From Aquaticitalea lipolytica (GTDB lineage: Bacteria > Bacteroidota > Bacteroidia > Flavobacteriales > Flavobacteriaceae), in NCBI RefSeq assembly GCF_014641635.1, contig NZ_BMIC01000001.1, positions 812,641 to 876,640 on the forward strand: 64,000 nt of DNA. Reading direction: 5' to 3'. Position 1 is the stretch's first letter; the number at the start of each line of letters is the position of its first letter. Under the pieces are notes generated by a model that saw only the letters and a list, made by a program, of their open reading frames with translations, did no database searches and was not told the origin of the DNA. Below, piece after piece: positions 23,151 to 27,821 of the stretch. The position numbers were made by a program, and so were the translations under genes.

Positions 23151-24263
23151 ATGCTAATTTTTAATATTCTATTCTACTTATTTATTGTAGTTATACTTAT
23201 TCAGATTATTTATTACGGTGTATTTTTTGTTGCTTTCAAAAAACAAAACACTCTTCATAAAACCTCAAAAAAACACCCAGTTTCAGTAATTATATGTGCT
23301 AAAAACGAAGCAAAAAACCTAAAACATTTTTTGCCTTCAATTTTAGAACAAGATTATCCAAACTTTGAAGTCGTTTTAATTAATGACTGTTCTTCAGATA
23401 AAACTTTAAAAGTAATGGAGAGCTTCAAAGAATTACACAATAATATTAAAATTGTTAATGTAAAAAGTATTGAAGCGTTTTGGGGAAACAAAAAATATGC
23501 GCTTACTCTTGGAATAAAAGCATCAACACATAATCATTTACTATTTACTGATGCAGATTGCAAACCTGTATCAAAACACTGGATTAGTGAGATGAGCAGT
23601 CATTTTTCTGATAAAAAATCGATAGTAATTGGATATAGTCCATATAAAAAAGAGAAGAAATCATTCTTAAATAAACTTATACGATTTGAAACCTTATTAA
23701 CAGCAACCCAATATGTCTCTTATGCAAAAATGGGAAGTCCTTACATGGCAGTAGGTCGTAATTTAGCATACACAAAAGACACCTTTTTTGAAGCTCGAGG
23801 TTTTATGGATCATATGAATATAAAATCTGGTGATGATGATTTGTTTATAAATCAAATTGCTGATGCTTCAAATACAATAATTTGTATAAACCAAAATAGC
23901 TTTACAGAATCAATCCCTAAAAAGAATTTTAAAGACTGGATACTTCAAAAAAGAAGACATATTAGCACAGCAAAGCATTACAAATCAAAACATAAATTAC
24001 TATTAGCTACATTTTATGCGTCACAGATACTTTTTTATGTTTTAGCTATTCTATTAATAAGCACACTTACATATTGGAAAATTGTACTTATACTAATAGC
24101 TTTAAGATACATTGTTCTCTTTACAAGTTTTATAGTTACATCAAAAAAACTTAAAGAAAACGACCTAATACCCTATTTACCTTTGTTAGAATTGTTTTTA
24201 ATTACCTCGCAATTCTCTATATTTATGAAAAATATATCTTCAAAGCCCAATCATTGGAAATAA
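23151..24263 (+). CDS. Family 2 glycosyltransferase, membrane-bound
   Basis: 370 residues. N-terminal membrane helix (about 2-24), then a GT-A domain: PVSVIICAKNEAKNL, VLINDCSSDKT, the metal-binding DxD as FTDADCKP, and a QKRRHIS motif in place of the usual QxxRW. Two to three C-terminal helices follow (about 280-350). Processive or lipid-linked sugar transfer at the inner membrane is likely; donor and acceptor are unknown. It overlaps the following sigma-factor gene by 10 bases. Confidence 0.87.
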   Translation: MLIFNILFYLFIVVILIQIIYYGVFFVAFKKQNTLHKTSKKHPVSVIICAKNEAKNLKHFLPSILEQDYPNFEVVLINDCSSDKTLKVMESFKELHNNIKIVNVKSIEAFWGNKKYALTLGIKASTHNHLLFTDADCKPVSKHWISEMSSHFSDKKSIVIGYSPYKKEKKSFLNKLIRFETLLTATQYVSYAKMGSPYMAVGRNLAYTKDTFFEARGFMDHMNIKSGDDDLFINQIADASNTIICINQNSFTESIPKKNFKDWILQKRRHISTAKHYKSKHKLLLATFYASQILFYVLAILLISTLTYWKIVLILIALRYIVLFTSFIVTSKKLKENDLIPYLPLLELFLITSQFSIFMKNISSKPNHWK

Positions 24264-24802
24264 AACAAGCTATTGAGAAAGCCAAATTAAACGACCAAAT
24301 GGCGTTTAATTATTTATTGGACACCTTTTGGAATGATGTTTATGGGTTTCAGTTAAAACGTACAGAAAACGAAAATGATGCAGAAGACATAACCATACAA
24401 ACCTTCTCTAAGGCGTTTGATAAAATTCATACTTATAATGAAAATTATGAATTTAAAACTTGGTTAATAACCATTTCAAAGAATATTCATATTGATTTGG
24501 TTAGAAAGCAAAAATCATCAATAGCAAATACTACAAGTAAACCTCATGATAATGATTTTTACGATATTATTGATGAATCTCCTTCGCCTGAAGATGACTT
24601 AATCACAGAGCAAAACTTAGCAAAATTACTTCGAGACATAAAGAAGTTAAAACCTCATTATCAAGAAATTATTAATTTAAGATACTTCCAAGAGTTAAGC
24701 TACAAAGAAATTTCAGATCAACTAAACGAGCCCATAAACAATGTGAAAGTAAAGTTGCTTCGTGCTAAAAAACTATTGGCAGAAATTATTAAGAAGAAGT
24801 AA
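24254..24802 (+). CDS. Second sigma-70 family (ECF) factor
   Basis: 182 residues from a TTG start that overlaps the glycosyltransferase end by 10 bases. Region 2 has AEDITIQTFSKAFDKIHTY and FKTWLITISKNIHIDLVR. Region 4 has YFQELSYKEISDQLNEPI and VKVKLLRAKKLL. It is distinct from the factor at 21471. No anti-sigma factor of known type adjoins it; the next gene encodes a four-helix membrane protein that could play that role, but this is speculation. Confidence 0.88.
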   Translation: MEIKQAIEKAKLNDQMAFNYLLDTFWNDVYGFQLKRTENENDAEDITIQTFSKAFDKIHTYNENYEFKTWLITISKNIHIDLVRKQKSSIANTTSKPHDNDFYDIIDESPSPEDDLITEQNLAKLLRDIKKLKPHYQEIINLRYFQELSYKEISDQLNEPINNVKVKLLRAKKLLAEIIKKK

Positions 24803-24804
24803 GT

Positions 24805-25686
24805 ATGAATCAAACACAAAGTCAGTTTTATCAAGAATCTGGAATAGCCAACCCACTAAATATTTCGCTATCAGTAACATGCAGCCTCATTGCAATATGC
24901 ATTTTGAGTTTTCTTTACAGTATAATTACTCACTACCTACCTCTTGTTTACTTTAATTTTTTAATTGCTATAGGATTTGGCATTTCAATCTCCTTTGTTA
25001 GTCGTTTTTTCAATAGTATATTCAAAATAAGAAACAGGAAAAAAAGCATTATCATCACTTTAGTTTTAGCTTTTATAGCTGTGTGTTTTCAATGGATATG
25101 GTATTTATATATTATTAATTCTGTTGAATTTAGTTTTATAGATGGAATTACTTTTTTTATTAATATGATATTCAGACCAGATTTAGTAATTGAAAATATA
25201 ATTATCATAAATAAATTTGGTGTTTGGGAAATGTTTGGAACTACATTTAAAGGCATTGTTTTATGGTTAGTTTGGTTGGTTGAAGCTGCTATAATCATGT
25301 TTTTGTCATATAATAATTATTTACATTTTCAAACAATTCCATTTTCAGAAAAAGACAACAAATGGTTTAAAAAAGATTATATTGATTTTGATTTCGAACA
25401 TATTGCATTCAAAAAAGAGTTCATAGAAAAATTTCAAATTAATCCTTCAGAAGCAATTAGTGAATTAAAAAAAGGTGATGGTTTAAGACATTCAAAAATT
25501 TCAGTTTACAAATCTGATACTGAACAAAAAAGTATAGTTACAATTGATAATATAAGAGTAACCGAAAGAGGAAAAGGAAAAAAAGATATCACTACTGTAC
25601 TTGAACCTATATATGTTGACAATCAACATTTAATAAAAATTAGAAACAGTTTTAAATTTAAAAAAGCATCGATTTTTGAGTTTTAA
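24805..25686 (+). CDS. Membrane protein of unknown family
   Basis: 293 residues. Hydrophobic segments at about 20-42, 47-68, 77-100 and 150-172, then a polar C-terminal domain (about 180-293) with many Lys/Asp/Glu and a beta-rich SIVTIDNIRVTERGKG. I recognise no family. It begins 2 bases after the sigma-factor stop and overlaps the NRAMP-type gene by 11 bases, so it belongs to a co-translated set. It might be a regulator or partner of its neighbours. Confidence 0.65.
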   Translation: MNQTQSQFYQESGIANPLNISLSVTCSLIAICILSFLYSIITHYLPLVYFNFLIAIGFGISISFVSRFFNSIFKIRNRKKSIIITLVLAFIAVCFQWIWYLYIINSVEFSFIDGITFFINMIFRPDLVIENIIIINKFGVWEMFGTTFKGIVLWLVWLVEAAIIMFLSYNNYLHFQTIPFSEKDNKWFKKDYIDFDFEHIAFKKEFIEKFQINPSEAISELKKGDGLRHSKISVYKSDTEQKSIVTIDNIRVTERGKGKKDITTVLEPIYVDNQHLIKIRNSFKFKKASIFEF

Positions 25687-26890
25687 CCTTAAAAATATTG
25701 GCCCAGGGTTATTATTTGCTGGTGCTGCTATTGGTGTTTCTCATTTGGTACAATCAACACGTGCAGGAGCAGATTTTGGTTTTGGCCTAGTTTGGGCTTT
25801 ACTACTTGTAAACATTTTTAAATATCCTTTTTTTCAATTTGGTCCGCGTTATGCTTTAGCAACTGGCGAGAGCCTTTTAGATGGTTACAAAAAATTAGGA
25901 AAAGGCGTTTTAATTACCTATTTCATTTTAAGCATTGCTACAATGTTTACCATCCAACTTGCAGTAACTATAGTAACTGCAGGTTTGGCTTCATCTATTT
26001 TTGGAGATTTTATTTCTTTAGAATTTTGGACAGTAATAATTTTAGGTATCAGTTTTTCTATTCTTGTTTTTGGGAAATATAGTTTTCTTGACAAACTAAT
26101 GAAAGTAATTGTGCTAACCCTTACAATTAGTACTGTTGTAGCTGTAATTATCGCATTGTCAAATAACCAAACATCTTTTTCATTTGCACAAATACTTCCA
26201 AAAAACAGTGTAGAAATAGCATTTTTAATTGCTTTTATGGGATGGATGCCAGCTCCTTTAGATATTTCAATTTGGCATTCTCTTTGGGCAATTGAAAAAC
26301 ACAAAGACACAAATACTTATGATGTAAAATCATCACTTTTCGATTTTAATGTAGGCTATTTATTTACAATAATTTTAGGATTAGGTTTTATCTCTTTAGG
26401 TGCTTTGGTAATGTTTCATACCGAAGATGTTTTTAGTGGCTCAGCTAGTGAGTTCTCAAACCAACTTATTAATATGTATACTAAAAATTTAGGCAGTTGG
26501 TCTTATGTAATAATTGGCATTGCTGCTTTTACAACAATGTTTAGCACTACACTAACAACATTAGATGCTTCACCTCGAGCAATGGAAAAAACTACCCAAT
26601 TGCTATTTGGTAACATTCTAAAAAGAGGATATTTATTGTGGCTACTCATACTAGCTTTAGGAACTATTTTTATTTTCTTCTTTTTAAACTCAGAAATGGG
26701 ATTATTAATTAAAATAGCAACTATACTATCATTTCTTACTGCACCATTTTACGCTATTATAAATTACAGATTAATTAGTAGCAAGCACACTCCTAAAGAG
26801 TGGCAACCTTCAATAAAAATGCACATTTTAAGCATTTTAGGCATCCTATTTTTAATCGCTTTTAGCATTTGGTATCTATCTACATTATAA
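25676..26890 (+). CDS. NRAMP-family membrane transporter lacking the DPGN motif
   Basis: 404 residues from a TTG start, about eleven membrane helices, with the NRAMP hallmark GPGLLFAGAAIG at the N-terminus. In canonical NRAMP proteins the helix-1 motif Asp-Pro-Gly-Asn and helix-6 Met-Pro-His bind the metal. Here the aligned residues are Gly20-Val-Ser-His23, and helix 6 reads GWMPAPLDIS, so Met191 is kept but the His is Ala193. The protein should still be a transporter of this fold, yet probably not a normal Mn/Fe carrier. It overlaps the preceding gene by 11 bases. Confidence 0.8.
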   Translation: MSFNLKNIGPGLLFAGAAIGVSHLVQSTRAGADFGFGLVWALLLVNIFKYPFFQFGPRYALATGESLLDGYKKLGKGVLITYFILSIATMFTIQLAVTIVTAGLASSIFGDFISLEFWTVIILGISFSILVFGKYSFLDKLMKVIVLTLTISTVVAVIIALSNNQTSFSFAQILPKNSVEIAFLIAFMGWMPAPLDISIWHSLWAIEKHKDTNTYDVKSSLFDFNVGYLFTIILGLGFISLGALVMFHTEDVFSGSASEFSNQLINMYTKNLGSWSYVIIGIAAFTTMFSTTLTTLDASPRAMEKTTQLLFGNILKRGYLLWLLILALGTIFIFFFLNSEMGLLIKIATILSFLTAPFYAIINYRLISSKHTPKEWQPSIKMHILSILGILFLIAFSIWYLSTL

Positions 26891-26942: not shown

Positions 26943-27821
26943 ATGAATACAGAAACGTCTTCAAATATATTACCAGAACGTCAAGCAAAACCTAAATGGC
27001 TACGTGTTAAACTTCCAACAGGAAAGAAATATACTGAGTTAAGAGGATTAGTTGATAAATACAAGCTTAATACAATTTGCACATCTGGAAGTTGCCCAAA
27101 TATGGGTGAATGTTGGGGAGAAGGTACTGCAACATTTATGATTTTAGGAAATGTGTGTACACGTTCTTGTGGGTTTTGTGGTGTAAAAACAGGACGTCCT
27201 GAAACTGTAGATTGGGATGAGCCTGAAAAAGTTGCCCGTTCAATAAAAATCATGAATATTAAACATGCTGTATTAACAAGTGTAGATAGAGATGATTTAA
27301 AAGATATGGGAAGTATTATGTGGTCAGAAACTGTTAAAGCAGTTAGACGAATGAATCCTGAAACTACATTAGAGACTTTAATTCCAGATTTTCAAGGTAT
27401 AGAACAGCATATTGACAGAATTATTGATGTTGCTCCAGAGGTCGTTTCGCATAATATAGAAACTGTTAGACGTTTAACTCGAGAAGTACGTATTCAAGCT
27501 AAATATGATAGAAGTCTAGGAGTTTTAAAATATTTAAAATCTCAAGGACAACGTCGCACAAAATCTGGTATTATGTTAGGGCTTGGTGAAACAAGAGAAG
27601 AGGTTATTGAAACACTTCACGACTTAAAAGCTAATGATGTTGATGTTGTAACTATTGGTCAGTACTTGCAGCCAAGTAAAAAACACTTACCAGTAAAACA
27701 ATTTATCTTACCACAACAATTTGATGAATATAAACAGATTGGTTTAGACTTAGGTTTCCGTCATGTAGAAAGTAGTGCATTGGTTAGATCTTCATACAAA
27801 GCACAAAAACACATTAACTAA
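26943..27821 (+). CDS. lipA: Lipoyl synthase
   Basis: 292 residues. Radical-SAM enzyme that inserts two sulfurs into octanoyl-protein to make lipoyl cofactors for 2-oxoacid dehydrogenases and glycine cleavage. The auxiliary cluster ligands are Cys46, Cys51 and Cys57 in [12 protein letters not shown]. The radical-SAM cluster ligands are Cys72, Cys76 and Cys79 in CTRSCGFC. The C-terminal RSSY supplies the serine ligand of the auxiliary cluster. The stop overlaps the gap start by one base (TAATG). Confidence 0.97.

Follow-up and report, generated by a model that had tools for sequence, protein, structure and literature searches.

Gene organization at the locus

The gene analyzed here lies in a window of 64,000 nucleotides from the Aquaticitalea lipolytica genome and encodes an Nramp-related protein of a group referred to below as the GVSH clade (Table 1). 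Its open reading frame (ORF) is intact over 404 codons. It shares 11 bases with the end of the upstream ORF, starting at a TTG codon that was set mechanically (the conserved region runs from residue 5 on). The protein scored 65.8 bits with PF01566, above the curated Pfam cut-off of 29.8, and is the only PF01566 protein in the 3.1-Mb genome. An earlier note on this DNA had described an NRAMP-fold protein at this place, and the intact frame, the Pfam score, and the AlphaFold model (pTM, 0.82) bore that description out. The protein also scored 66.4 bits with NCBIfam NF037982 ("Nramp family divalent metal transporter"; cut-off, 50).

Table 1. Features of the transporter locus and their positions in the window
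Feature	Position	Strand	Remark
ECF sigma factor	24254..24802	+	Upstream neighbor usual in Flavobacteriaceae
293-aa ORF	24805..25686	+	Between ECF sigma factor and transporter
Nramp-related (PF01566) transporter, GVSH clade	25676..26890	+	404 aa, TTG start
GPG, residues 9-11, TM1 start	25700..25708	+	Present in 148/148
G20-V21-S22-H23	25733..25744	+	Opposite canonical Nramp DPGN
Lys49, TM2	25820..25822	+	Opposite DraNramp A85; 148/148
TM6 break, G189-W190-M191-P192-A193-P194-L195-D196	26240..26263	+	
TM8 D297-x-x-x-R301	26564..26578	+	D297 and R301 both 148/148
Lipoyl synthase lipA	26943..27821	+	Downstream neighbor

The order ECF sigma factor, transporter, lipA is that of Flavobacteriaceae-type loci: of 79 such loci, 71 had the sigma factor directly upstream of the transporter and 74 had lipA downstream; outside such loci lipA was not found downstream. 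This neighborhood may reflect synteny by descent. The 293-aa ORF had no match in Pfam or NCBIfam, and its family was directly upstream of the transporter in just 2 of the 79 loci. In many Flavobacteriales outside the Flavobacteriaceae, from several families, a FabK/nitronate-monooxygenase-like gene was directly upstream on the same strand (loci L238, L240 to L249, L251, L252, L254, and L264); the window genome holds a 71% match to this gene, but at another locus (L269). The neighbors in other lineages were unrelated (a TonB receptor, TsaC, and a carboxylase). Since neighbors differ between lineages, no common theme holds, and genome neighbors were rejected as a clue to the substrate, lipA and the ECF sigma factor being constant in Flavobacteriaceae-type loci only. 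A riboswitch search of the window and of the loci of 18 relatives gave none that reached the threshold. In one lineage (L165:13545-15893), the gene directly upstream of the transporter encodes a TonB-dependent receptor that is heme-receptor-like below the cut-off.

A large and conserved clade

Relatives were drawn from whole genomes, named genome contigs, and plasmid records. Search matches fell cleanly into two sets, one with approximately 35 to 77% identity over almost the full length and the remainder at approximately 32% or below. The close group was present in 50 of 296 genomes of a phylum sample, a match was found in 64 of 296 genomes of an order sample, and 31 of 60 near relatives carried the gene; in one genome collection, such proteins are encoded at no fewer than 589 matching places. 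The clade occurs in many Bacteroidota and, outside them, in Neisseria gonorrhoeae, Photobacterium, and Pseudoalteromonas, the records concerned being gonococcal chromosomes filed as plasmids, two from Photobacterium, and two from Pseudoalteromonas.

Conservation was counted in an alignment of 148 distinct (nonidentical) clade members. Residues G20, S22, H23, K49, P51, G189, W190, M191, P192, S202, W204, D297, and R301 were invariant, and residue 196 was Asp or Glu in every member. The constancy of G20, S22, H23, G189, W190, M191, and P192 in all 148 excludes a sequencing error, and the open frame likewise speaks against a pseudogene; both explanations were ruled out. The GVSH clade is real, deep, and widespread, and the reading of this protein as an isolated oddity was not sustained, the clade being large and falling inside the Nramp-related proteins already described as paraphyletic (PMC12873925).

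The transporter gene can nonetheless be lost. In one relative (L174, 2001-11895) it is split into two fragments separated by approximately 9 kb, the C-terminal one adjoining an ORF for an IS4-type transposase, and in another (L175) a 72-aa C-terminal remnant stands alone at the conserved sigma-lipA place. Two long ORFs (1,032 and 483 aa) between the L174 fragments are putatively SusC/SusD-like by their look.

Residues of helices 1 and 2

The GPG at the start of TM1, given as retained in the earlier note, was confirmed throughout the clade. The replacement of DPGN by GVSH also stood as described, with residues 20, 22, and 23 fixed, but the change of Asp to Gly proved not to be special to this protein. 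Other PF01566 proteins from the same and related genomes carry GPGT, GTGS, GAGD, GSGE, or LGPGS in TM1, besides the canonical DPGN, and Gly at the DPGN Asp position was common to every noncanonical group sampled except NRMT; it is therefore no mark of the GVSH clade. What varies from group to group is the residue at DraNramp N59, which is His in the GVSH clade, and the Ser that replaces Gly just before this position was found in the GVSH clade only, among the sampled groups. On alignment, the hallmark of the clade is Ser-His after Gly20.

The alignment of TM1 and TM2 to DraNramp is gapless, pairing residues 20, 23, and 49 with 56, 59, and 85, so that the placement of K49 opposite A85 is the firmer; that K49 and H23 belong to the site is predicted from this alignment. 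Outside the GVSH clade, Lys opposite A85 occurred only in the GAGD, GSGE, and GSGE2 groups (loci L178, L185, and L237; L179 and L180; and L236), and the GSGE groups also have the TM8 arginine in common with the GVSH clade. Together, the shared lysine and arginine suggest a wider "lysine" branch of the PF01566 family.

Register of helix 6

The residues described as an MPA in place of the canonical MPH (positions 191 to 193) are present, but this register is probably two residues out. A profile comparison with canonical Nramps alone (E value, 1e-7 in one run and ~8e-10 in another) opened a 2-residue gap and set M191-P192 on the M-P of MPH. In contrast, comparisons with the PxpT (E value, 5e-18), GAGD (4e-23), GSGE, GSGE2, and GTGS2 groups, as well as both multiple alignments, were gapless and set A193-P194-L195 opposite M-P-H and W190 opposite the Ala of A-x-x-M-P-H. 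Residue 193 is variable (Ala in 102, Ile in 30, Thr in 10, and Gly in 6 of 148), whereas M191-P192 is constant. Because most comparisons and the multiple alignments are gapless, the register in which A-x-x-M-P-H corresponds to W190-x-x-A193-P194-L195, with M191-P192 specific to the clade, is preferred; since the AlphaFold pLDDT is below 50 at residues 192 to 195, it is favored and not proved. The canonical A-x-x-M-P-H is absent, its His missing in either register.

Predicted fold and phylogenetic placement

An AlphaFold model built from 76 sequences (pLDDT, 82) returned an Nramp fold for the structure prediction that had been proposed as a check, with the model uncertain at the TM6 break (residues 192 to 195). 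Its best PDB match was DraNramp (6d91; Z, 40.1; 3.1 Å over 384 residues), followed by other Nramps, EleNRMT, and the organic carriers SLC7A10 (Z, 32.2) and AdiC (Z, 32.1). Nramps are the top-ranked matches of the model, and the predicted fold is that of Nramp/LeuT proteins; matches to non-Nramp families were not taken as function, nor were families off the match list excluded. The claim that both helices are unwound held for TM6, which the model breaks at residues 190 and 191, but not for TM1 (residues 10 to 34), which is drawn as one helix.

In a tree of 59 rows, all 27 GVSH rows fell on one side of a branch with support of 100/100; the stem of the clade is long (1.92 changes per column), and long branches are present in the tree. 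The clade adjoins the GSGE groups (97/93) and lies apart from the canonical, NRMT, and PxpT rows, the positions of the GSGE2 and NRMT rows being particularly unsure. An approximately unbiased (AU) test rejected GVSH proteins and canonical Nramps as one group (p-AU, 1.75e-5). Placement in the canonical clade was therefore rejected, and the phylogeny that the earlier note had proposed as a check set the protein outside the canonical, NRMT, and PxpT/MntG groups, in a clade of its own.

Comparison with characterized and uncharacterized relatives

The GVSH clade shares its fold and family with the Nramp-related or G-motif groups (PMC12873925; the outgroup of Cellier, PMC9606685 and PMC10606218) and, like them, is without DPGN, MPH, and the TM3/TM9 proton pathway. 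Those proteins have been described as paraphyletic, diverse, and uncharacterized apart from NRMT and MntG (PMC12873925), and the GVSH clade is in this class. The window protein has the marks of the G-motif type, namely Gly at the DPGN Asp, loss of MPH, and no proton-pathway residues. Its clade differs from the other sampled groups in having Ser-His where they have Gly followed by Thr, Ser, Asp, Glu, or Gly and, additionally, in the invariant Trp-Met-Pro of TM6 and Asp/Arg of TM8. It is a clade in its own right within a kind already known, set apart from the groups sampled here, and may equal one of the groups of PMC12873925.

Canonical Nramp/MntH (DraNramp) is the best structural match, but identity is approximately 15% and the metal and proton-pathway residues are all lost. 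PxpT and YcsG (MntG) are likewise PF01566 proteins with the TM1 Asp changed to Gly and match by profile (E value, ~5e-18), but they have features of their own: GPGT and VVPYN motifs, linkage to 5-oxoprolinase genes, and a separate clade (100/99). The window protein lacks GPGT and stands outside their clade, and no pxp genes were seen beside GVSH-clade loci among those examined; a GPGT-type paralogue in the same order lies directly before pxpA, pxpB, and pxpC (locus L177). EleNRMT resembles the GVSH protein in fold (Z, 33) and in the change of M230 to Ala in the favored register, but NRMT keeps the TM1 Asp (DAGG), and its profile match is weak (E value, ~1.6e-5). Among solved structures, the sequence search matched SiNRAT (NRAT1, 8ont; E value, 0.0014) and no other; it belongs to a plant clade. 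The signatures of NRMT and NRAT are DxxG/TxxA or T and DxxN/AxxT, respectively (PMC8806188). With G-x-x-H and W-x-x-A, the window protein fits neither, in agreement with the original remark that it has neither the Mg nor the Al pattern.

Substrate of the GVSH clade

In DraNramp, Asp is strictly required at position 56, D56A being inactive, and Y54, A85, M230, H232, and L381 are the core specificity positions, with A85 in the second shell (PMC13060092). Relative to DraNramp, the GVSH clade has Y54 changed to Ala, D56 to Gly, N59 to His, and A85 to Lys; M230 to Ala, Ile, Thr, or Gly and H232 to Leu, Ile, or Val (favored register); and H237 to Trp, D296 to Phe, Q378 to Thr, and L381 to Ser. E134 is without counterpart, and the proton-pathway residues are absent. 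All five core positions are thus replaced together with D56 and N59, so that a substrate other than Mn or Fe is plausible; the earlier suggestion that a different substrate is likely was upheld to that extent, but loss of D56 alone excludes no metals. From these alignments, canonical Mn/Fe transport by the clade is unlikely, and the protein is probably mislabeled as a "divalent metal transporter."

The explanation that best accommodates these features, with a confidence that stays somewhat short of an even chance, is an Nramp-fold carrier with a rebuilt site and, preferentially, a small organic substrate. Such a protein would be a LeuT-fold secondary transporter of PF01566, in one clade among several with the canonical Mn/Fe site replaced, and would presumably keep the central site and work there by alternating access. 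The rebuilt site would lack the first-shell aspartate and have His at the Asn position and a second-shell Lys at DraNramp A85. By chemistry only, a Lys near the site and a His within it speak for a substrate that is anionic or zwitterionic rather than a bare divalent cation, and the site might better fit a small organic molecule of that kind (e.g., a carboxylate). PxpT, a PF01566 protein required for the uptake of 5-oxoproline, offers a precedent by analogy: Corynebacterium glutamicum without pxpT fails to grow on this compound, and pxpT complements the defect (PMC13274462). We tentatively suggest that the GVSH proteins, which carry a divalent metal transporter annotation across Bacteroidota and in Neisseria, are a large, previously unassigned set of small organic acid or zwitterion carriers; the Nramp fold would then have left metal transport a second time, independently of PxpT.

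A transition-metal importer in which His23, Met191, and Asp/Glu196 replace Asp56, Asn59, and Met230 as ligands would account for the strict retention of H23, M191, and an acidic residue 196 and for the profile comparison that places M191-P192 on the M-P of MPH, but it is unlikely, given the invariant Lys near the site at DraNramp position 85 (PMC13060092) and the position of M191 at 228, not 230, in most group comparisons. There is also neither a constant metal-linked neighbor nor a riboswitch above the threshold in the window and 18 loci. Overexpression of Bacillus subtilis YcsG/MntG, a homologue of PxpT, has been reported to raise cellular Mn, and the protein was called an Mn importer (PMC10448178); as it is placed in "G-motif 3" (PMC12873925) and by group is without the TM1 Asp, the substrate class cannot be read from the loss of D56, and this example favors a metal role. 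Metal supply in the host cuts both ways. The window genome also encodes a ZnuA-type binding protein and ZIP proteins, so that its metal supply need not rest on the transporter. Among 11 carrier genomes, ZIP proteins were present in all, which weighs against a metal importer, and a ZnuA-type binding protein was found in 4; since 7 have the transporter gene and none of the latter, redundancy cannot dismiss a metal role. This mixed supply neither needs nor excludes one.

Other functions are less probable than metal import. The fold might serve a carrier of monovalent ions or protons only or a nontransporting sensor; the matches to the model take in LeuT-fold carriers of ions, KimA (Z, 30) being one example, but fold matches do not show function and nothing specific points either way, and we regard this as improbable. 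An NRMT-like Mg2+ transporter with a site enlarged for the hydrated ion is very improbable. In the favored register M230 is changed to Ala and H232 to Leu, each of which enables Mg2+ import by DraNramp; in that protein, though, it is A85D/E, not Lys, that favors Mg2+ (PMC13060092), the TM1 Asp kept in NRMT is lost in the GVSH clade, and the tree places NRMT closer than the GVSH clade to the canonical Nramps (moderate support, 90/55). Least credible of all, and refuted as far as an error is concerned, is a canonical Mn/Fe Nramp altered by a sequencing error or local motif divergence: the automatic NF037982 annotation would agree with it, but the motifs are identical in 148 independent relatives, the clade lies outside the canonical one, and the proton-pathway residues are gone.

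If the clade carries no metals, its naming as "Nramp family divalent metal transporter" is a source of error for studies of metal homeostasis. The clade also holds the only PF01566 protein of a gonococcal genome. The changed positions G20, S22, H23, K49, W190, and D196 would constitute a natural experiment in the substrate change of one fold, and their tabulation complements the published mutant scans of DraNramp.

The gonococcal member

The sole PF01566 protein of gonococcal chromosome NZ_CP119142.1 is a GVSH-clade member (L181:6968-8221) with the motifs GGSH and GWMPAP. Like some other clade members, it falls slightly under the Pfam cut-off for PF01566 (29.2 versus 29.8 bits). A transport test of this member was not found in the literature. 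Its gene adjoins one that by eye resembles a lysyl-tRNA synthetase gene. The protein is probably NGO1455, which is listed as a "putative NRAMP" in a gonococcal fnr microarray study (PMC1802743).
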